From an archaeon (GTDB lineage Archaea > Nanobdellota > Nanobdellia > Woesearchaeales > UBA9642): DNA of 64,000 bases. The notes beneath the pieces were generated by a model. That model ran no database searches and was not told where the DNA came from. It saw nothing but the letters and a program-made list of their open reading frames with translations. Location of the stretch: NCBI GenBank assembly GCA_020057295.1, contig JAGVGF010000006.1, positions 62,001 through 126,000 of the forward strand, in the 5' to 3' direction. The position numbers and the translations under genes were made by a program. Shown in pieces: positions 22,964 through 54,602 of this stretch. Numbering within the stretch: the first letter of the stretch is position 1; every line of letters begins with the position of its first letter.

Positions 22964-24076
22964 TTATCTCACGCTAGTATATCCGCCCTTAATACCTTTC
23001 TTTGAGAATACTATCTGATATAATTGTATATTTCTACATCTAAACGAACCAGCGCAACTTAAAAGATAGTATCGCCACATACGATAAAATCTATCATCAT
23101 ATATCGGTTTTGTTCCTTTTAGTTCATGCCATGTTCTTTCAAAGTTTGCATGCCATCCCATCAATGTTTTATCATAATCAGCACCAAAATTGTGCCAGTC
23201 TTCAAGAGTAAAAAGTCCTTCAGCTGCTGCTGTAAGCTGTTTTGCTGATGGCAACATCGAATTAGGGAATATATACTTAGCAGTCCACGGTTCTGTAACA
23301 ACTACAGACTTATTTCCGGCAATAGTATGCAATAAGAATAATCCATGATCCTTCAAACATTTGTTTGCAAGCTCCATAAATGCTCGATAGTTCTTGTAAC
23401 CTATATGTTCACATAATCCTACAGATACTATACGATCAAACTGTCCGTGAGCTTCACGATAATCTGCTTCTATGAACGTTACAGGTAAACCTTTACACCA
23501 TTCTCTAGAATAAGCAATCTGTTCTTTACTAATATTGTAACTTACAACTTCACAACCGTATTCTTTTGCCATGAATCTTGCAAGTCCTCCGAATCCTCCT
23601 CCTAATTCAAGAACTCTCATTCCTTTTTTTAACTGAAGTTTTTCACATACTAATCTTAATTTTGCAACTTGTGCTTGATCTAATGTTTTTGCATTCTTCC
23701 AATATCCACAAGTGTACTGCATATTTTTGTCAAGCATTCTTGTGTACAATTCGTTTCCTAAATCGTAATGTTCCTGTGCTACAACTTTAGATTTAGATTT
23801 TGTTTGTTGATTAAACAATAACGATTTTATTGCTCCAGCCACAATTATTGTTTTTGAAACATGTTTATCTAATTCAGCATCTAATACTTTGTAGAAGAAT
23901 TGGTCTAAATCTTTTACATCCCACCAACCGTCCATATATGCTTCTCCAAGTCCTAAAGTACCTTGTGACAAAATTCTAGAGTATAAATTAGGATTATGTA
24001 CATGTATGTCCCACGTATTAGGACCATCAATTACGACTCCTGCATGATTCAACAATTTCTGTATTTTTTCTTTCAT
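22964..24076 (-). CDS. Cyclopropane-fatty-acid-synthase-type SAM methyltransferase
   Basis: 370 residues. The SAM site LELGGGFGGLARFMA is flanked by the residues that bind bicarbonate in bacterial CFA synthase: Cys in QYTCGYWKNAKTLDQAQ, Glu in VGLCEHIGYKNY, His and Ile in LLHTIAG, and Tyr in HNFGADYDKTLM. The enzyme class methylenates or methylates a cis double bond in a lipid acyl chain. ATG 24076 is chosen because GAGGT precedes it; the frame is open to 24163. It follows the FAD reductase gene by 68 nt on the same strand. The substrate in an archaeon with isoprenoid lipids is unknown. Confidence 0.88.
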   Translation of the reverse strand: MKEKIQKLLNHAGVVIDGPNTWDIHVHNPNLYSRILSQGTLGLGEAYMDGWWDVKDLDQFFYKVLDAELDKHVSKTIIVAGAIKSLLFNQQTKSKSKVVAQEHYDLGNELYTRMLDKNMQYTCGYWKNAKTLDQAQVAKLRLVCEKLQLKKGMRVLELGGGFGGLARFMAKEYGCEVVSYNISKEQIAYSREWCKGLPVTFIEADYREAHGQFDRIVSVGLCEHIGYKNYRAFMELANKCLKDHGLFLLHTIAGNKSVVVTEPWTAKYIFPNSMLPSAKQLTAAAEGLFTLEDWHNFGADYDKTLMGWHANFERTWHELKGTKPIYDDRFYRMWRYYLLSCAGSFRCRNIQLYQIVFSKKGIKGGYTSVR

Positions 24077-24144
24077 AATAAATACCTCGCATTTATTTTT
24101 TATATTTTTATTTCTTATATTTTGAATAATATCTGAGTTCAGAG

Positions 24145-25491
24145 TTATTTTCTCAAAACACATTTATCATACAAATTTTTAAATCTGTAATTAGCATCAT
24201 ATTTTTTCTTTAGTTTATCGTAAGTCTTTTTATTATATAACTCCCAAAATTTTTTCTCATCGTAATACGCTGTTGAATATAAAGATTTTTTTCCGCGGAG
24301 TTTCTCTACGATAAATTCTACTTTCTTGTTTAAGTATCCGTCTTCTTTACCTGTTTTTACTACATCCCAGAATCCAAAATTAATATATAATATTTCTGGT
24401 TTCATCACGTATAAATCGTATTTCGCTTTACCGTTAAGCGGTTGTGTTGGGCACATCCATACAGGAGCTATTCCTATCTCTTTTTGAAAAAAATCCAAAA
24501 ATTCTGGAGCGTTTGCTATAGGAATTTCTACATCTTGTATAACTGATTCTTTTTTTATTCCAAAAAATGCATCTATCTTTTCTAATATTTTAGTTTTTCC
24601 TGCAAATGCACGTATTTTCCAATAAGTTGTAGATTTCAAAAATTTCTTACCAACTAAAAATCTTACAATTTTATTTTGCACTCCAAAACTTGATGAACAC
24701 CAGAACCAGTCAGTATCCCATCTCCAGATATAATCTTTTATTGTTAAATAATCAGTAGTTTTTGTTTTTATCGATTTATAATAGATATTCATATAAGTAT
24801 AATCACTAACATAAGGAGCAGAGCTAACGCATTCTCCAATAGTTAGATACATTTCATTTTCACTAAATATAGATCCATCTACAAATGTCAAATCTTTTGA
24901 TTTTCTATATTTTTTACAATTAGAATTCACAGCATCAAAATAAGATTTAGAATTATCATATTTAGTGTGTGTTAACTTCACGTAAGGAAGTGTTTTTACA
25001 AGTTTGACTTTTAATCTTAATACATATCCAAATGTTCCGTAAGAGTTCGGAAATCCATAAAATAAATCTTTATATTTATTAGTTCTAGTGCATACGACTA
25101 TTCTTCCATCGCCAAGTAATAGTTCTAATTCTTCTATTGTTTCATGAACTAAGCCGTATTTGAATGATGAAGATTCAATCCCTCCACCAGTTGTTGCTCC
25201 TCCAATAGTTATGGATTTTAATTGTGGAACGACAGTCGGCATTAAACTATATTTTAGTGTCTCTTCTACTAATTCTTCGTACGTTGTCATTCCTTCTACA
25301 TCTGCTATAAGATTTTTTGAGTCAATATTAAGAACGTGATTAAAATTTTTTACATTAATCTTTTTTGCATTAACATCTCTGTGCCTAAACAGATTTGAAG
25401 TATCTTTCTGGAGAACAACTGCACCATCAATTGATTTAAATTCTTCTAATAGAATACGTTTACGTTCTTCAAAACCCCCATAACTATCCAT
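24145..25491 (-). CDS. DHCR24-like FAD-linked oxidoreductase
   Basis: 448 residues with a PCMH-type FAD domain. ADVEGMTTYEELVEETL and TVGG-like TIGGATTGGGIESSSFKYGL match the signature of the DHCR24/Diminuto Delta24-reductase group (GIESSSxKYGL), followed by ELLLGDGRIV. These enzymes reduce an isolated C=C bond. Start is set at ATG 25491 because the longer frame would run into tRNA-Ser(CGA); a TTTTTAAAAG element lies about 27 nt upstream. Pairing with the methyltransferase parallels actinobacterial TmsA/TmsB (BfaA/BfaB), which make 10-methyl fatty acids. Confidence 0.82.
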   Translation of the reverse strand: MDSYGGFEERKRILLEEFKSIDGAVVLQKDTSNLFRHRDVNAKKINVKNFNHVLNIDSKNLIADVEGMTTYEELVEETLKYSLMPTVVPQLKSITIGGATTGGGIESSSFKYGLVHETIEELELLLGDGRIVVCTRTNKYKDLFYGFPNSYGTFGYVLRLKVKLVKTLPYVKLTHTKYDNSKSYFDAVNSNCKKYRKSKDLTFVDGSIFSENEMYLTIGECVSSAPYVSDYTYMNIYYKSIKTKTTDYLTIKDYIWRWDTDWFWCSSSFGVQNKIVRFLVGKKFLKSTTYWKIRAFAGKTKILEKIDAFFGIKKESVIQDVEIPIANAPEFLDFFQKEIGIAPVWMCPTQPLNGKAKYDLYVMKPEILYINFGFWDVVKTGKEDGYLNKKVEFIVEKLRGKKSLYSTAYYDEKKFWELYNKKTYDKLKKKYDANYRFKNLYDKCVLRK

Positions 25492-25542
25492 GAAATTATC
25501 AATAATAATGCTTTTAAAAAGGTTGCTAAAATGAAAGTATAA

Positions 25543-25667
25543 CGCCGACGCCCAGATTTGAACTGGGAAACCTTTCGGAAATGGTTCTTTTGGGCGAAAG
25601 ACCAAAAGTTTCGAAATAGCATTTCGCCATTCGAGACCATCGCAGTACCAGATTGTGCCACGCCGGC
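25543..25667 (-). tRNA. tRNA-Ser(CGA), intron-containing
   Basis: Class II tRNA with 7-bp acceptor stem (one G-T pair), long variable arm, T-arm CCCAG/CTGGG and discriminator G. The anticodon stem ATGGT/ACCAT is interrupted: loop CTCGAA, then a 43-nt intron (25587-25629), then A. The anticodon is CGA (25631-25633). The intron sits at canonical position 37/38, and its ends pair (GGCGAAA/TTTCGCC) to form the bulge-helix-bulge cut by the archaeal splicing endonuclease. The exact boundaries could shift by 1-2 nt. Without the intron it is 82 nt, like tRNA-Ser(TGA) at 32161. Confidence 0.92.
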
Positions 25668-46075: not shown

Positions 46076-48076
46076 TTATTCTATATACATTTCGTGTATT
46101 AATTCTATGAATGTAGTAATACTCCATGTTTGACACAAACATCCTCCGGATTTAAACCATCCGCTAGAGGCTAATTCTGAAGCGTAGCCAATAAATCCCC
46201 AGTACAGTATGTCTTGTGTTGATGCATGCATTATTTTTTGTATATAAGTATCATATTTTTCTTTATTTAATCTATACATTGCTATAGCAGCAAGATTGTT
46301 TATCCAGAACCAACTATCGCCGCGATGATAGCTTTTATTATCAATTCCTGTATAATATGGTTGATATAATCCGTTGCTCTTATCTATAGTGCTTAATCCA
46401 CCACATTTTACTGTATCTATATCCCATTCGCACCAAAGTTTACTTAGAGCATTGTCAAAAGTTGATTCCCAATCCTTAGGAGATACTAATTCAGGATATA
46501 AATAATAGGCTAAGAATATGTTAGGCCTAACAATTTCACTCATTGTGCAATCATATCCGTCGTTTAATACATTTAAGCCATTAACTCCTTTAAAGAATTT
46601 GTTACGTACAATCTCTGTTGTATCTTCTTCTAATTTTTTATAGTTATACTGATTATCTGTAATGCTTACAAGTTTTTCGTGTTTTTTAACAAACTTATTA
46701 GCTAAGTAATTATTCAATAGATTCATTAATTTTAACATGTTTAAAAATAGTGTTTGTATCTCTATCCTTGCACCCTCACGATAATCTGTATTATATGCTG
46801 AACCATTAAAGTATGTGTCCATCCATGTCTCCAGGTTACCATTAATTAATAATCCCTCCTTAGAATAATTCTTTAATAAAGATTTTATTGTGAACTGCAG
46901 CCTCTCTCTAATATATTTGAGATCATATAATGTGAAGTATACATCAAAATTATTACGTTGTTCGCAAATAATCATATAATCATATATTCTCTTAAATAGC
47001 CATCCTATACCATCAGCGTTGCCTAATTCTGTTGAAGGATATCTATTAGATAATCTACCATCAATTTTTATATCGGACAAGTATCTTAATATTATCTCCT
47101 TAGAACTTTCGTATCTATGTTCTAGAATTAATGCTTGCATAGATATTAGTTCGTCTCTAGCCCAGTATTGATGAAACCACGGAAGTCCAGCCCATAATCC
47201 GGTAACTTTCTTATGATCTACTTGTAAATGCATTAATAACCCATCAATAGCATGCACACAATTAGCATATGCCATTGCAACTTCTGGACCGGTGACTTTA
47301 TGTATTTCGCTCTTAGTCTTAATAACATTCTCAATATAATGATCATATACCGTTCCTATTTTTTCATCATTATCACTTATATCATTAACTTTAGATATTG
47401 CTTCTTCTTTATCATCACTAAATCCGAAATATAATTTAACATTTTTTTTGCACAACACTTGTAATGCATTATACACATAGCGCTCAGGATCGTTCTTTCT
47501 GTATGCATCATAGTGATAATATTTGTGAGACCACGTGTTTTTTAAAGTGTATCCAAAATTTGCGCCTTTAATTGCTAGATAAGATTTTTTAACCATTTCC
47601 TTTAATGATTCATCTCTATATTTAGTGTATTCAACAAGTAATATGTTCATGCCTTCCAATTTGTAAATTTTATAGATTCTTCCCTTATCATCAGAATCAT
47701 ATATTCCTCTAAAGTCTAAATCTATATTTATAAGTCCGTGGTACGATGATACATTGTATATCAAACCATTTTTTGCTATAACAAAATTCTCAATGACTTC
47801 AGAAGATCTGCGTTCAATGTTTGTGAAATTATTTATTAACTCAGTAGGATCTTTATCAATATATATGTTATCAACAGTCTTGTAGAGTGTAAATCCGTCG
47901 CTTGAACCTATCGCATTAAACCATCCTGTAAAATTTGTTATAGCATCTTTAGGATTAGCAGATAATGCAAAATAATGTCCGCGTCTACTAACTAAAAATA
48001 ATGACAGACCACGCTCTAAAGTATTACTAACATCTTTACTAACTTTTAATTTTTTTATCTTGTGTGTTATTAACAT
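46076..48076 (-). CDS. Glycogen debranching enzyme (amylo-alpha-1,6-glucosidase type)
   Basis: 666 residues. The catalytic (alpha/alpha)6 barrel shows LWAGLPWFHQYWARDELISM, NADGIGWLFKRIYDY, NTDYREGARIEIQTLF and SYHRGDSWFWINNLAAIAMY, as in archaeal GDE and the C-terminal half of eukaryotic debranching enzyme. The ~260-residue N-terminus is the beta-sandwich part. It removes alpha-1,6 branch glucose from glycogen-like polymer. It is last in the glucan island; the gaps to galT (81 nt) and beyond are short, so an operon is likely. Confidence 0.85.
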   Translation of the reverse strand: MLITHKIKKLKVSKDVSNTLERGLSLFLVSRRGHYFALSANPKDAITNFTGWFNAIGSSDGFTLYKTVDNIYIDKDPTELINNFTNIERRSSEVIENFVIAKNGLIYNVSSYHGLINIDLDFRGIYDSDDKGRIYKIYKLEGMNILLVEYTKYRDESLKEMVKKSYLAIKGANFGYTLKNTWSHKYYHYDAYRKNDPERYVYNALQVLCKKNVKLYFGFSDDKEEAISKVNDISDNDEKIGTVYDHYIENVIKTKSEIHKVTGPEVAMAYANCVHAIDGLLMHLQVDHKKVTGLWAGLPWFHQYWARDELISMQALILEHRYESSKEIILRYLSDIKIDGRLSNRYPSTELGNADGIGWLFKRIYDYMIICEQRNNFDVYFTLYDLKYIRERLQFTIKSLLKNYSKEGLLINGNLETWMDTYFNGSAYNTDYREGARIEIQTLFLNMLKLMNLLNNYLANKFVKKHEKLVSITDNQYNYKKLEEDTTEIVRNKFFKGVNGLNVLNDGYDCTMSEIVRPNIFLAYYLYPELVSPKDWESTFDNALSKLWCEWDIDTVKCGGLSTIDKSNGLYQPYYTGIDNKSYHRGDSWFWINNLAAIAMYRLNKEKYDTYIQKIMHASTQDILYWGFIGYASELASSGWFKSGGCLCQTWSITTFIELIHEMYIE

Positions 48077-48157
48077 TTTATTTTCACAAAGCGAAAATAT
48101 AAAGCTATTAAGTGACAGTAATTAGCTGCTTATCTCTTAACGGTTATATTAATTATC

Positions 48158-49135
48158 TTACTGTTCTCCCCTGTAGAATCTTGCAGCTGTTTCTGGACTA
48201 ACCTGGTTAACAATGGTTTCTGAGCCATGTTCTACACCACCCCAAAGTTGTATCCTTGGAGTTATTTCTATATGGAAATGCAGAGTTTTAGCCGCAGGAT
48301 TATTCATATAACCTTTAGGCGTACAATGCAGATAATAATTATATGAACAATTCAAGTCTTTTAATCTGGACAAAACTCTCTTCATAATAGAAGCTAAATC
48401 TAAAAGGGCGTCATCACTAATTTCTGTAAGTGAGGCATAATGTTTTTTTGGGAAAATCCATATCTCATAATTAAATCTTGAGGCATAAGGAGTAAAAGCC
48501 ACGAAAGTATTATTCTCAAAACATCTTCTATAAGAAGCATTCTCTATATTTAATATTTCACAATGTGGGCAGGTTTGATAAGTATTAACAACAGTTAATT
48601 CTTCTCTTACTAATCTAGGAATATGCGCTAATGCTAATATTTGACTATGTGAATGTTTTACAGAAGTTCCTGCATCTTTACCATGATTCTTAAATAGATG
48701 AACATATTGTATGTGATCTTTAGAATATAACTCCTGCATTCTATTCTTATAGACTGTCAACAAGTTTTTTATTTCTACTTCATTAAAATCGTACAATTGT
48801 TTATTATGATCATTAGTTTCTGCAATAACTTCATGATATCCATAAGCATCAGAGAATGTAAAATATTTATTATCTGTCTGTATAAAATATTTACCAAGAG
48901 GTTCAACGATTGGAAATTTATTCTCAAACCATCTTATGATCCAAGGATTACCAAATCTACCTTTTTCTTTAGGTGTTAAATATTCATTTCCTGCACAAAA
49001 ATGACATGCAATTTGATTGTCAGAAAGATTGTTTGGATGAATAACACCATCTCTCCTAAAGCTATCAGGTCTTAATGTACGTTGCTCTGCAATTATTACA
49101 TATCGATCCAAAATATAATCCTTACGTAATTCCAT
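48158..49135 (-). CDS. galT: Galactose-1-phosphate uridylyltransferase-like enzyme
   Basis: 325 residues: LPDSFRR near the N-terminus, zinc ligands CHFC near residue 41, SVKHSHSQILALAHIP with the catalytic His, and a second repeat with HFHIEITPR. The H-S-H-S-Q form is that of archaeal/plant GalT-like transferases, where NDP-sugar specificity varies (UDP- or ADP-glucose phosphorylase activity is known in relatives). In this island it may supply or recover the NDP-glucose used by the synthases. Confidence 0.85.
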   Translation of the reverse strand: MELRKDYILDRYVIIAEQRTLRPDSFRRDGVIHPNNLSDNQIACHFCAGNEYLTPKEKGRFGNPWIIRWFENKFPIVEPLGKYFIQTDNKYFTFSDAYGYHEVIAETNDHNKQLYDFNEVEIKNLLTVYKNRMQELYSKDHIQYVHLFKNHGKDAGTSVKHSHSQILALAHIPRLVREELTVVNTYQTCPHCEILNIENASYRRCFENNTFVAFTPYASRFNYEIWIFPKKHYASLTEISDDALLDLASIMKRVLSRLKDLNCSYNYYLHCTPKGYMNNPAAKTLHFHIEITPRIQLWGGVEHGSETIVNQVSPETAARFYRGEQ

Positions 49136-49189
49136 AAATTTTACCCCTGATAATTTCTTTTATAAATCTTAGTCGCGTATTTTTGAATT

Positions 49190-50980
49190 TTATTTACCTA
49201 TTTTTGCTAAGGCCATATTGTGTGCAGTGATATAATTTTCAGCAAATATCTTCCAATCTGCTAAACTTGCAAAATTTTTAGCATTTAATTTTGCATCTAT
49301 ACGTTGTTGCTGTGTAAATTTCGAAAATTTAAACATGATATTAGCAAAATCATCAACAACTTTATCTTCAGACTTATTTAATCGTTCAAGTAAATAAACA
49401 CCATCCTTACGAGCATCATGATTTTTAATGAATGCACCAAATCCGCTTAAATCAGTTGTGAGAGCTGGAACGCCCAATGCTACGCTTTCTAAAGGAGTGT
49501 ATCCCCAAGGTTCATAGTAACTAGCAAACAATCCTAAATGACATCCTATAATCGCATCGTAGTAAGGTAAATCAATGAATCCATCATTACCATCCATATA
49601 TACTGGCTCAATTATTACTTTAACCATATCTTCCTTGCGATTCATCAAACCATTTTGTTTAAAGGCTATTACAAGTGCATTATTTAATTCGTCAATGTTA
49701 TGTGTAGAAAATGGAGGATTGCCTTTACGTTCAAAAGCAATTAAATCTTTCTTTAAGTGAGTATTAAAAGTGTCATGAATTAATTCTTGCTCGGCATTAT
49801 CTTTTTTTGCCAACATATCATAAATCATTCTGGTTAATATTTCTGCACCATTACTATTAACATAATTTTTTATATGCATATAATAATTTTTATTTTCCAA
49901 GAGTTCAATCTTTAAACCATGATTCTCCATCGGTATCCAGAAAAACACTGTGACTGTATGAACATTAGATCCAGAATCTTTTTTCAATTGTTCATTAAGT
50001 TTGCCCAAAGCCTTTATTAGAATATCATATCCTTTATTTTTATATTCGTAACGTCCAATAGTATAAAATATTAAGTTTTTGTCCATATCAAAAGTGTAGT
50101 AAGGAAAATAAAAATATGTTAGGAATTCTCTAATTTTATCTCGTGATACTCTATGTTTTATTGATGTATCTTCAAAGCTTGGGAATTGTGCAATATCCAA
50201 ACCGTTAAACAACAATATGTCGGGTTTTCTTGATAAAAATCGTTCAGATTCTATACCAGTAATTTCCGATACTGTAGTAAATACGTCAGCATTTAAAGCT
50301 GCAGCTTTTTCAGTTAAATGTTTAGCTTCTACAGTAAATCTGTATGCTTCAGATAGCGGTTCTATATTATTAAGAGTATGATATAAATCGATGCCGTTGG
50401 AAGCTAAAGTTCTACCTAGAACAGTAGCATGAGTTGTAAATATTGTGCCTACAGATTTGCAATTCTTTTTTAAGTACAACAAACCGCATGCCGATAACCA
50501 TTCATGAAATTGTGCAACAACTTTTTTATCTCTTAATGATTTATCGTTTAAGGAACCGATGAGCTTTCCTGTACAATAAGACCATAACAATGGTTCTTCA
50601 AAATCCCAGTATCCTCTTAAAGAATCAATTTTATAATCGTTCCAAAACATTTCTTTAATATAATTTTTTTGATCGATAACACCCATAAATTCTATTAATA
50701 TAACCTTAGGCTTACCCTTAACATCTTCCCATGTACCAAAATGACATTTAATATTTTCGCGTGCTAAATCATCGAATACTTGTTTAAATTGTGCTGGAGG
50801 AGGAGATTCTGTAAGTTCTACACGAGCATTATTTTCAAAGTAGGGACCGATTAAGTAATAATTTTTATAATATGATTGCATCTGCTCTACTTTAGAAGTT
50901 AGCACAGTGTATATTCCGCCAACTTTATTACATACTTCCCATGACACTTCAAACATATAATCAGCCAGTGCATTAATCAT
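49190..50980 (-). CDS. Glycogen synthase, GT3 (eukaryotic GYS) type
   Basis: 596 residues. The N-terminus EVSWEVCNKVGGIYTVLTSK and the C-terminal PWGYTPLESVALGVPALTTDLSGFGAFI are diagnostic of GT3 glycogen synthase, otherwise best known from fungi and animals, and distinct from bacterial GT5. VAQFHEWLSACGLLYL and a THATVLGRTLA segment are also present. It extends alpha-1,4-glucan from UDP-glucose (family knowledge). AGGTGA precedes the ATG. The regulatory phosphorylation tails of the animal enzyme are absent. Confidence 0.92.
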   Translation of the reverse strand: MINALADYMFEVSWEVCNKVGGIYTVLTSKVEQMQSYYKNYYLIGPYFENNARVELTESPPPAQFKQVFDDLARENIKCHFGTWEDVKGKPKVILIEFMGVIDQKNYIKEMFWNDYKIDSLRGYWDFEEPLLWSYCTGKLIGSLNDKSLRDKKVVAQFHEWLSACGLLYLKKNCKSVGTIFTTHATVLGRTLASNGIDLYHTLNNIEPLSEAYRFTVEAKHLTEKAAALNADVFTTVSEITGIESERFLSRKPDILLFNGLDIAQFPSFEDTSIKHRVSRDKIREFLTYFYFPYYTFDMDKNLIFYTIGRYEYKNKGYDILIKALGKLNEQLKKDSGSNVHTVTVFFWIPMENHGLKIELLENKNYYMHIKNYVNSNGAEILTRMIYDMLAKKDNAEQELIHDTFNTHLKKDLIAFERKGNPPFSTHNIDELNNALVIAFKQNGLMNRKEDMVKVIIEPVYMDGNDGFIDLPYYDAIIGCHLGLFASYYEPWGYTPLESVALGVPALTTDLSGFGAFIKNHDARKDGVYLLERLNKSEDKVVDDFANIMFKFSKFTQQQRIDAKLNAKNFASLADWKIFAENYITAHNMALAKIGK

Positions 50981-50988
50981 TTATTCAC

Positions 50989-51591
50989 CTATGACAATAA
51001 CTTATAAAGTAATAGTACAAAGATCAATATTATTAATATAAAATATAACAAAGTCCATAAAATATTTTCACGATAATCATCATCAATCTCTTTACCTAAA
51101 CCTTTTTCTGGACGATATTTGTCTTCTTCATTATGACCCATACTAGATAATTTCTTATCAGATAATTTTTTCCTAGAAAATACGTGAAACCATTTCTTTC
51201 TGTTTTTAGCATCTTTTAATTGTTCATGATTTTTTTCTGTGTTGCTCAACTCAGACATTACAACTTTTTTAGTTGATTCTCGAGTTCTTTCCATCTCCAC
51301 TTCTTTTCGAGTCATCTTCATTATAGACTCTTCAACAGCTATTTCATTAATTCTATCTTTGAGAATATTTACGGTAGTATTTTTTGATAACACATATCTT
51401 ATCTTATCAGCTAAATTCTTATCTAATAACACAAATTCTATCCAGTTAGAGAAATCATTTTTTTGAGTATTAACAAATTTCGAGAATGCTACATCAGAAA
51501 TCTTTTCTAAGGCTATGGTTAAATCTAATAAATTTCTTATTCTACTACCATCATGTAATACAAACTCTTTGTCATGCGGAGCATTTATCAC
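50989..51591 (-). CDS. Tail-anchored DUF5752-like protein of the glucan island
   Basis: The N-terminal ~75 residues (EFVLHDGSRIRNLLDLTIAL, FSKFVNTQKNDFSNWIEFVLLD) are homologous to the neighbour 51627-51977. A charged coiled coil follows, and the chain ends in a single hydrophobic helix (ILWTLLYFILIILIFVLLLYKLL), so it is a C-terminally anchored cytosolic protein. The domain recalls DUF5752, which I remember beside archaeal glucan genes. It lies 8 nt upstream of the glycogen synthase. GTG 51591 is the likely start; TTG 51594 and GTG 51600 are alternatives. Confidence 0.6.
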   Translation of the reverse strand: MINAPHDKEFVLHDGSRIRNLLDLTIALEKISDVAFSKFVNTQKNDFSNWIEFVLLDKNLADKIRYVLSKNTTVNILKDRINEIAVEESIMKMTRKEVEMERTRESTKKVVMSELSNTEKNHEQLKDAKNRKKWFHVFSRKKLSDKKLSSMGHNEEDKYRPEKGLGKEIDDDYRENILWTLLYFILIILIFVLLLYKLLS

Positions 51592-51626
51592 CAAAATCAC
51601 CTCTTTAAATAAAATTTATGATTAAA

Positions 51627-51977
51627 TTATTTTTTATTTAATTTTTCTAGTTTCTCGAATAAATATCTATACAATTCTATACTCATATCTAGTCTATTTC
51701 TTAAATTATGAATCTTCTTGGATAGATCCTCTTCTCTAAATACATCAGTTATCCAGTTCGCAAAGTCATTTCGTGTATCATTAACATGGTAACTAAACAT
51801 ATCATCGTTTATTGTTTGTAGAATATCTGCTAATTCTCTATAATTCTTTATCTGTCTTCCATCACACATCACAAAATATTTGTCAGGTGTTACCTCAACA
51901 AAAAGTGTATATTTTTTTGCTACAGGTTTAACGACGGATTTCTTTTGTTTCTCGATCGCACTTTTCTCCTTTTTCAC
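51627..51977 (-). CDS. DUF5752-like small protein
   Basis: 116 residues: a Lys-rich N-terminus, then the domain YFVMCDGRQIKNYRELADIL ... FSYHVNDTRNDFANWITDVF ... LSKKIHNL. The pattern F-x-x-x-DG-I-N-x-x-EL ... V-N-x-x-NDF-NWI is shared with the adjacent tail-anchored protein, so the pair is a tandem duplication. No catalytic motif is visible; a glucan-binding or scaffold role is inferred from location only. GTG 51977 is preceded by AGAGGTGA. Confidence 0.6.
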   Translation of the reverse strand: MKKEKSAIEKQKKSVVKPVAKKYTLFVEVTPDKYFVMCDGRQIKNYRELADILQTINDDMFSYHVNDTRNDFANWITDVFREEDLSKKIHNLRNRLDMSIELYRYLFEKLEKLNKK

Positions 51978-52018
51978 ACTCTCACCTCTAATTTTAATTC
52001 TGAATAATTAATCGTAAT

Positions 52019-53302
52019 CTAACGGATTACTTCATTAAGCATTTTTGCCGGTCGATCAGTAATCCTATGTTGAACATGATATTTATCTTTTAATTCAATT
52101 ACTATGCTTTTTTCTTGAATATGTTTTTTCATTCTTAAAATTAAGTCATTAAGTATATTCATAAAATTAATGTATGATTCATAAGGTGTATCATAAGGGT
52201 TGAAATATTTATGTACGTCTCCATCATTAAAATATTTTGTACACATGTAATAAAAGTGATCACTAGTGGTAAGTTTTCTCCAATCTTCTAATAAAACTTT
52301 ATTATTTAATTCTTTAACCATTTTTTCTAGAGCATAAAGTTCAGTTAATGCAGAATTTTGCATGTTATTACCAATCCAAGCACTTAAATCTCTCTCAATA
52401 TCAGCCCATGATACAAAATTATGTATGTCTAACTCTGCTACAGGTTCATTAAGTGCTAATTCTGAAGGCCATACAAAATGCGTGTGAGGATTCTTAAATA
52501 ATTCGTGAGGTAAATGTCTTAAGAAATTAAATATTCCTGTATCTTCCCACTGATGTTCACCGAATGTTTCATAATCCATAAACAAATTAACAGAATGCTC
52601 TGCATGTTGATTTAACCAAGTAGCATATTTCTCCGCAGTTAAGGGATATTCTTTCCAAGACTTTTGTCCGAATCTGAAAGCTATATCATCACTTAACTTG
52701 TAATTTTTCAATAATAATTTTAAATTTTTAGTTGTTTTAGCTTTGTAAACATAATTCGGACTACGCCAATCTAAAATATGATCTGCGCCCTCAGCAAGTA
52801 CTGCTTTAAATCCTAAACTTTCAACAAAATGTGCTAATTCGTTATTAAATATTAATTCAGTATTTCTAAAGACGACAGGTTCTTGACCAAATAATTCTTT
52901 AATTTTTTTACGATGCAATTCTATCTGCGCTTTAAACTCTTCTTTAGAGTAAAGATAAGAAAGCGAATGATAATATGTTTCTGATAAGAATTCTACACAT
53001 CCTGTATCGGCTAATTTTTTGAATGATTCTAAGACTTCTGGAGCATACTTTTCAAATTGTTCTAACGCTACACCGGTTATACTATATGAGACTTTAAATT
53101 GCCTGCCTGACTTTTTGTAAGTGTGTATAAGATCAAGTATTGCTTTATTTGTTGGTAAATAACATTTTTTAGCAACCTTCTGCATTACTTCTTTATTTTT
53201 ATGCTCATCAAAATAGTCGCTAGTATTGCCTATATTAAATACCGAATACCTCTTCATTCTGTAAGGTTGGTGTACTTGAAAATAAAAACATACATTTGGC
53301 AT
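52019..53302 (-). CDS. GH57 alpha-amylase-type glycosidase
   Basis: 427 residues: CFYFQVHQPYRMKRYSVF, GRQFKVSYSITGVALEQ, ETYYHSL, VFRNTELIFNN (nucleophile Glu) and FMDYETFGEHQ (acid/base Asp region) are the conserved GH57 regions. There is no signal peptide, so it works in the cytosol, consistent with trimming or degrading internal storage glucan. Branching-enzyme or 4-alpha-glucanotransferase activities also occur in GH57 and cannot be excluded. AAGGTGA precedes ATG 53302. Confidence 0.9.
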   Translation of the reverse strand: MPNVCFYFQVHQPYRMKRYSVFNIGNTSDYFDEHKNKEVMQKVAKKCYLPTNKAILDLIHTYKKSGRQFKVSYSITGVALEQFEKYAPEVLESFKKLADTGCVEFLSETYYHSLSYLYSKEEFKAQIELHRKKIKELFGQEPVVFRNTELIFNNELAHFVESLGFKAVLAEGADHILDWRSPNYVYKAKTTKNLKLLLKNYKLSDDIAFRFGQKSWKEYPLTAEKYATWLNQHAEHSVNLFMDYETFGEHQWEDTGIFNFLRHLPHELFKNPHTHFVWPSELALNEPVAELDIHNFVSWADIERDLSAWIGNNMQNSALTELYALEKMVKELNNKVLLEDWRKLTTSDHFYYMCTKYFNDGDVHKYFNPYDTPYESYINFMNILNDLILRMKKHIQEKSIVIELKDKYHVQHRITDRPAKMLNEVIR

Positions 53303-53336
53303 AATTAACTCACCTTATATAAAATTTGTACAATAA

Positions 53337-54596
53337 TCACGGAGCTTTTTCACCATGAGCGTGTTCGTGTAATACTAAATTATAAATGTCAATACATTTT
53401 TGTGCTGGAACATTCCAACTAAATGTTCTAACTTCTATTGCACCATGATGTAATAATTCATGATGTAATCCTCGATAATTTAATACTGTTAGTATCTTGT
53501 TAGCTAATTCGTCAACATCCCAAAAATCTACTTTAAGAGCGTTCTTTAAGACTTCACTAACGCCTGATTGTTTAGAGATTATTACAGGAACATTATTTCT
53601 TAATGCTTCTAAAGGCGTAATACCAAAAGGCTCGCTTACTGAAGGCATCACGTACAAATCTGCGAGCTTGTACATTCTATCAACATCTGGTCCTGAAGCC
53701 CATCCAGCAAATAGTACTTTACTACCTATACCTAACTGCGCAACTCTATCAACAAGTCTTGCTTCCATATCACCATTACCTACTACAATAAATTTCACTT
53801 CAGGATCATAATCCAAAACTTTTTTTGCAGCCTCAATAAAATAGTCAGGACCTTTTTGTAATGTTAATCGTCCTAAATATAACACAACTTTTTCATTCTT
53901 CTTAACATTAAAATTAGGTTCATCAGTAAAATCTACAGCATTATGAACTACAACAATTTTATCTCCAGAAATACCATAATGCTGCATAATTTTTTGTTTA
54001 GTAAAATAAGATACCGCGATCACTCTATCAGCTTGCAACATTCCTTGTCTTTCAATATCATAAACATACTGATTAACGCTGTTGCCTCCAGTCCTATCAA
54101 ATTCTGTAGCATGCACTTGAACAATTAATGGTTTTCCAGTTGCCTTTTTTGCTTCAATACCAGCCGGGAAAGCCATCCAATCATGACAATGTATAACATC
54201 AAATTCTTCAGTCATAGCTATAGCTTTTGCAGCCATTGATAAACGATATACTTCATCATAAATATTTCTACCGTATAATACTTTAGAATTTTCAGATTTA
54301 GTTTTTAATGTTTCAATATATTGTTCATAATTGGTAGAATATTGCGTTTCAGTAAGATAAGGTTTTAACAAACTATCAATACGTTTTATCTTAAGATTAT
54401 ATCTAGAAAGATTAGATGCGATTAAGAGTTTAACGAATTCTGCCTTCATATCTTCTGGCCCATGCGGAATGACGAAAGTTACATCAACATTCTTGTTCGT
54501 TAAACCCTTGGTTAAGCCATAACATGCTGTGCCAAGACCGCCCGACATAAATGGTGGAAATTCCCATCCAAACATGAGTACCTTTAACTTATTCAT
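53337..54596 (-). CDS. GT4 glycosyltransferase (glucan synthase-like)
   Basis: 419 residues of GT-B fold: FGWEFPPFMSGGLGTACYGL at the start (glycogen-synthase-like glycine loop), DVIHCHDWMAFPAG, VLYLGRLTLQKGPDYFIEA and SVSEPFGITPLEALRNNVPVI with the E-x7-E motif. It probably adds glucose from an NDP-sugar to an alpha-glucan or a lipid/protein acceptor. ATG 54596 is preferred; the longer GTG start at 54602 overlaps the AGAGGTGGG ribosome site. As the first gene of the island it follows directly on the regulatory region. Confidence 0.87.
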   Translation of the reverse strand: MNKLKVLMFGWEFPPFMSGGLGTACYGLTKGLTNKNVDVTFVIPHGPEDMKAEFVKLLIASNLSRYNLKIKRIDSLLKPYLTETQYSTNYEQYIETLKTKSENSKVLYGRNIYDEVYRLSMAAKAIAMTEEFDVIHCHDWMAFPAGIEAKKATGKPLIVQVHATEFDRTGGNSVNQYVYDIERQGMLQADRVIAVSYFTKQKIMQHYGISGDKIVVVHNAVDFTDEPNFNVKKNEKVVLYLGRLTLQKGPDYFIEAAKKVLDYDPEVKFIVVGNGDMEARLVDRVAQLGIGSKVLFAGWASGPDVDRMYKLADLYVMPSVSEPFGITPLEALRNNVPVIISKQSGVSEVLKNALKVDFWDVDELANKILTVLNYRGLHHELLHHGAIEVRTFSWNVPAQKCIDIYNLVLHEHAHGEKAP

Positions 54597-54602
54597 ACCC
54601 AC

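Follow-up and report, generated by a model that had tools for sequence, protein, structure and literature searches.

In the actinobacterial 10-methyl fatty acid pathway, BfaA and BfaB (also TmsA and TmsB) together yield 10-methylstearate in E. coli via a methylene intermediate (PMC5660069), and NADPH is the donor for reduction of the methylene by BfaA from T. curvata (PMC7791843). For both enzymes, the substrates known from characterised relatives are monounsaturated acyl chains of phospholipids (PMC7791843, PMC5660069). A second reductase type is represented by TmpA of the tmp operon, a putative reductase that has been described as similar to archaeal geranylgeranyl (GG) reductases. As for Woesearchaeota, genes for cyclopropane fatty acid (CFA) synthase have already been published (PMC10936187), and acquired lipids have already been suggested for this group on different evidence (PMC11868695).

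Focusing on this type of pairing, we analysed a locus in a 64,000-nt stretch of DNA (the window) from a member of the Woesearchaeales, in which a reductase gene is directly followed by a CFA-synthase-type methyltransferase gene. With a probability of about 0.62, we consider that the two encode a module that methyl-branches acquired phospholipid chains in two steps. The features of the locus are as follows.

24145..25491, minus strand: predicted BfaA/TmsA-type FAD-dependent methylene reductase, 448 amino acids, first gene of the pair (FAD_binding_4 its sole family match, 8.6e-15)
22964..24076, minus strand: CFA-synthase-type SAM methyltransferase, 370 amino acids, second gene of the pair (CMAS, 6.4e-76)
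24077..24144, minus strand: spacer from reductase to methyltransferase, 68 nt
23405..23413, minus strand: methyltransferase codons for C222-E223-H224, with Cys at the position of E. coli Phe238, beside the equivalent of Glu239
25541..25667, minus strand: tRNA-Ser(CGA) with a 43-nt intron (Rfam tRNA, 37.2 bits; ARAGORN with introns allowed)

The sequence-only reading had described two same-strand genes 68 nt apart, and both minus-strand frames are indeed open and intact, starting at ATG 25491 for the reductase and ATG 24076 for the methyltransferase. Mechanical ORF calls extended them to TTG 25605 and ATG 24163, respectively; both longer starts look wrong, because the former lies inside the tRNA gene and the latter overlaps the 3' end of the reductase gene. 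The tRNA-Ser(CGA) gene, at which the default tRNA scan gave no match, lies about 50 nt ahead of the start codon of the reductase gene and is a possible candidate for an integration site. An Rfam mir-218 match at 23658-23751 scored under the gathering threshold and was taken as chance. The host had been read as an archaeon, and the contig of the window encodes an archaeal EF-1 alpha; the genome comprises 1.20 Mb in 6 contigs and is listed as 100% complete. Elsewhere in the window, a glycogen gene cluster at 46076-54602 (minus strand) contains a GT3-type glycogen synthase (PF05693, 475 bits), a debranching enzyme, a GH57 protein and a GalT-like protein.

The reductase is, by its sequence, a member of the BfaA/TmsA-type family. 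In a protein search of a plasmid collection it was 41-49% identical to actinobacterial and Variovorax homologues, with a methyltransferase alongside at four of the five loci examined. Among genome contigs 590 relatives were found, and the best 80, which were kept for analysis, were mostly bacterial (Proteobacteria, Nitrospirota, Acidobacteriota, Patescibacteria, Chlamydiota, Verrucomicrobiota and Actinomycetota), together with one archaeon. As shown in a 67-row tree, in which BfaA was represented by actinobacterial loci with the gene order of PMC5660069 and not by the assayed BfaA sequence, and which held neither TmpA nor DHCR24 sequences, the window reductase falls into a single 57-row family (SH-aLRT 99) with the actinobacterial BfaA-type proteins and the linked reductases of other archaea, as the earlier reading of kinship to TmsA/BfaA had proposed. 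The motif GIESSSFKYGL, which had been reported for this protein, is present at residues 104-114; as a specific signature of Delta24-reductases it fails, the same stretch being common in the bacterial BfaA family. A sterol-type DHCR24 assignment was rejected because of this shared motif and because the PDB, searched by sequence and by fold, gave cytokinin oxidases and DprE1 but no DHCR24. At least ten genomes of the same archaeal class encode a further and divergent family of DHCR24/BfaA-like FAD reductases (subfamily B); it falls outside the 57-row family and its genes have no linked methyltransferase (loci L035, L036, L037, L038, L039, L040, L042, L043, L215 and L216). Several subfamily B proteins carry KKKSVSHQVP near the start, and genome G093 encodes reductases of both subfamily B and the BfaA type.

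The identity of the methyltransferase bears on the main rival explanation, which is that it is an ordinary cyclopropane synthase, that the reductase does separate, unrelated work, for example on another unsaturated lipid, and that the two genes are neighbours for regulation only. Much about the protein would suit such an enzyme. It scores 556.8 bits over its full length against the NCBIfam equivalog PRK11705 for E. coli-type Cfa (cut-off 400), its best PDB match is E. coli Cfa (6bqc, 417 bits, near-complete length including the N-terminal part) and the two proteins are about 51% identical. The retention of the residues holding bicarbonate and the acyl chain (Cys, Glu, His/Ile and Tyr), noted earlier from the sequence, is borne out by alignment for all five positions: C139, E239, H266, I268 and Y317 of E. 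coli Cfa correspond to C123, E223, H250, I252 and Y301. Unlinked ordinary Cfas also occur in the same archaeal order.

The position of the enzyme among its relatives speaks for a different assignment. The BfaA-type reductase family has three types of methyltransferase partner, of which the actinobacterial BfaB type is about 30% identical to the window enzyme, the proteobacterial type 31-35% and the Cfa type, common to Woesearchaeota, Nitrospirota, Acidobacteriota, Patescibacteria and others, 48-62%. Since the actinobacterial BfaB-type proteins form a separate long branch (SH-aLRT 100) at about 30% identity, the methyltransferase was rejected as a BfaB/TmsB orthologue; the proposed match of the pair to TmsA/TmsB thus stands for the reductase and not for the methyltransferase, which belongs to the E. 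coli-Cfa clade. Within that clade, a tree of 51 Cfa-type proteins separates 25 reductase-linked members (counting the loci of genomes G017 and G044, which have a GG-reductase-family partner, as linked) from 26 unlinked ones, with branch support of 78/89, and the unlinked side includes E. coli Cfa and most archaeal copies. Immediately before the catalytic Glu, 25/25 linked and 0/24 unlinked Cfa-type proteins compared have Cys or Met; the unlinked proteins have Phe, Ile, Val or Ala there, with Phe in six of the eight bacterial Cfas, including that of E. coli, whereas the actinobacterial BfaB-type proteins have Thr and the proteobacterial partners Leu. A Fisher test on the contrast between Cys222 and Phe238 (p = 1.6e-14) was discarded as statistical proof and is invalid through kinship, since the tree shows a single change of linkage and a single change of residue. 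The Cys/Met residue is a clade-level mark and a hypothesis, representing one change and not independent replication. Judged from sequence, the subclade context and Cys222 point away from a cyclopropane product.

The linkage of the two genes had been expected to recur in relatives, and it does so in all nine reductase-bearing archaeal genomes: the BfaA-type reductase occurs in 5/353 genomes of the order, with an adjoining methyltransferase in 5/5, and a sample of the phylum yielded four more, from the same class, with the methyltransferase adjoining in 4/4. The genes overlap by 4 nt in five of these nine pairs, and both gene orders are seen, the reductase being first only in the window. Among the best 80 of the 590 reductase relatives, 66 have a methyltransferase on the same strand at most 500 nt away. 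In the order, 32 further genomes encode a Cfa-type protein with no linked BfaA-type reductase. We examined 25 of these loci and placed two (G017 and G044) in the reductase-linked methyltransferase clade; in both, a flavoprotein of the GG-reductase family adjoins the methyltransferase, with convergent genes at one locus and a 4-nt overlap in G017. In these archaea the methyltransferase clade is thus tied to a reductase, whichever its family. Relatives of this GG-reductase-like partner gave no match in the plasmid collection. A GG-reductase-family protein also lies beside a DUF1858-like gene in genome G000 (L034 11884-12972; L178 9179-10267), and its counterpart in G093 is near the methyltransferase and divergent. 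Two genomes of the same genus have no reductase and an unlinked Cfa of the ordinary type, so members of the group can do without the pair. The same type of pair is carried by Nitrospira MAGs, and Nitrospira species make 11-methyl-hexadecanoic acid (PMC5516240); by this analogy, pair genotype and branched-acid phenotype would agree, at the level of the genus only.

The linked methyltransferases thus form a clade of their own, apart from ordinary archaeal and bacterial Cfas, their linkage is retained in different phyla, with either gene order and even where the reductase has been replaced, and the reductase belongs to a known family of methylene reductases. Against this background, ordinary cyclopropanation beside an unrelated reductase is an unlikely account of the locus, although it is the strongest of the rivals.

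The lipid genes of the host bear on the source of the chain. The evidence for missing lipid synthesis comes from three protein families, GGGP synthase, CDP-alcohol phosphatidyltransferase and ketoacyl synthase: none of them was matched in the window's genome, and each was matched in 4/4 archaeal controls. GGGP synthase was likewise absent from all five genomes searched, and of the 11 genomes of the linked clade that were searched for ketoacyl synthase, 10 had none. The window's genome encodes a polyprenyl synthase, a GG-reductase-like protein and a PlsC-type acyltransferase, the last of which had no match in any archaeal control. The acyltransferase gene adjoins those of a PIG-L-type deacetylase and a GT4 glycosyltransferase (L177 9171-12158, G000 contig C6), possibly a cluster for the synthesis or remodelling of a glycolipid. 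On another contig (L183 4793-9875, G000 contig C3), four consecutive genes resemble those of a pyruvate dehydrogenase complex (E1 alpha, E1 beta, E2 and E3) by N-terminal sequence. The lack of matches to these isoprenoid and acyl lipid-synthesis families, together with the presence of PlsC, suggests acquired acyl lipids. The earlier proposal had left the substrate as either the archaeon's own isoprenoid or an acyl chain from a partner organism; the failure to find a GGGP synthase makes the former unlikely, and an acquired acyl chain is favoured.

An isoprenoid substrate nevertheless deserves weighing in its wider form, in which the pair would methylate and saturate a double bond of an archaeal lipid, own or from a partner, or of a polyprenol. 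DHCR24 reduces the double bond of an isoprenoid side chain, and the polyprenyl synthase and GG-reductase-family proteins of the genome are in keeping with such chemistry. The absence of GGGP synthase, the monounsaturated phospholipid acyl chains used by the characterised relatives of both enzymes and the full-length Cfa architecture retained by the methyltransferase all weigh against this alternative, and we consider it quite improbable.

It is also conceivable that the flavoprotein works in the oxidative direction and desaturates the methylated chain, a reaction of the kind seen when furan fatty acids are made. Enzymes of the PCMH/VAO fold are often oxidases, and the AlphaFold model of the reductase (mean pLDDT 90.7) shows a PCMH/VAO-type fold, the nearest solved folds being cytokinin oxidases and DprE1 with TM-scores of 0.60-0.66; in Rhodobacter, moreover, UfaD desaturates a methylated chain. 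However, the description of UfaD, which connects it with phytoene-type desaturases and has it requiring O2, places it in a different family, so that furan-type chemistry was set aside, whereas the window reductase lies in the BfaA-type family, for which reduction is demonstrated; oxidation is accordingly very improbable. Least probable of all is that the pair is a recently transferred passenger that does little or nothing in this cell, as its patchy spread (5/353 genomes of the order), its position near a tRNA gene and the missing reductase in the same-genus genomes searched might suggest, since its frames are intact, its catalytic residues conserved and its linkage kept in nine divergent archaeal genomes.

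The two-step module would operate as follows. The Cfa-type methyltransferase would use SAM to methylate a monounsaturated chain of a membrane phospholipid at its double bond. The resulting carbocation would lose a proton, leaving a mid-chain methylene and not a cyclopropane. The BfaA-type flavoprotein would then use NAD(P)H to convert the methylene into a saturated methyl branch. As the archaeon apparently makes neither isoprenoid-glycerol lipids nor acyl phospholipids, the substrate is most likely an acquired phospholipid of the bacterial type, which may come from a partner organism or from debris. Branching may keep the chain fluid with no double bond present. We infer the product, the source of the substrate and the benefit of the pair from these comparisons.

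If this reading is true, an archaeon with no detected route to its own membrane lipids edits acquired chains of the bacterial type, which would bear on the membranes of host-dependent archaea and on the lipid divide. A broader version, to which we give somewhat less than even odds, is that some Woesearchaeota and their relatives have membranes of scavenged bacterial phospholipids, which they remodel themselves with this Cfa-type clade and two unrelated reductases, of the BfaA type and of the GG-reductase type; on that version, a widespread clade that is automatically named cyclopropane synthase would consist of methyl-branching enzymes.

In comparison with the known systems, the locus is closest on the reductase side to BfaA/BfaB, with which it shares the reductase family (41-49% identity, as given above) and the arrangement of adjacent same-strand genes with the reductase first, but from which it differs in its E. 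coli-Cfa-clade methyltransferase, about 30% identical to the BfaB type, and in its archaeal host. The TmpB/TmpA operon for 10-methylpalmitate (PMC7791843), compared by description only, is similar in linking a Cfa-family methyltransferase to a flavoprotein reductase, and the archaeal loci of G017 and G044 resemble it further in their GG-reductase-like partner, whereas the partner in the window is a FAD_binding_4 protein of the BfaA type and not of the GG-reductase family. E. coli Cfa (PDB 6bqc) shares full-length homology and all five bicarbonate-site residues with the window methyltransferase, which differs in having Cys in place of Phe238, YNIS in place of VTIS near the SAM site and a linked reductase. 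The CFA synthases published for Woesearchaeota (PMC10936187) come from the same archaeal group and the same enzyme superfamily; the available text of that report mentions no reductase partner, and the archaeal copies that we found fall mostly into the ordinary, unlinked clade. To what was known, the present analysis adds a reductase partner of the BfaA type, a Cfa subclade that is linked to a reductase, a GG-reductase-like protein as alternative partner and the context given by the lipid genes.
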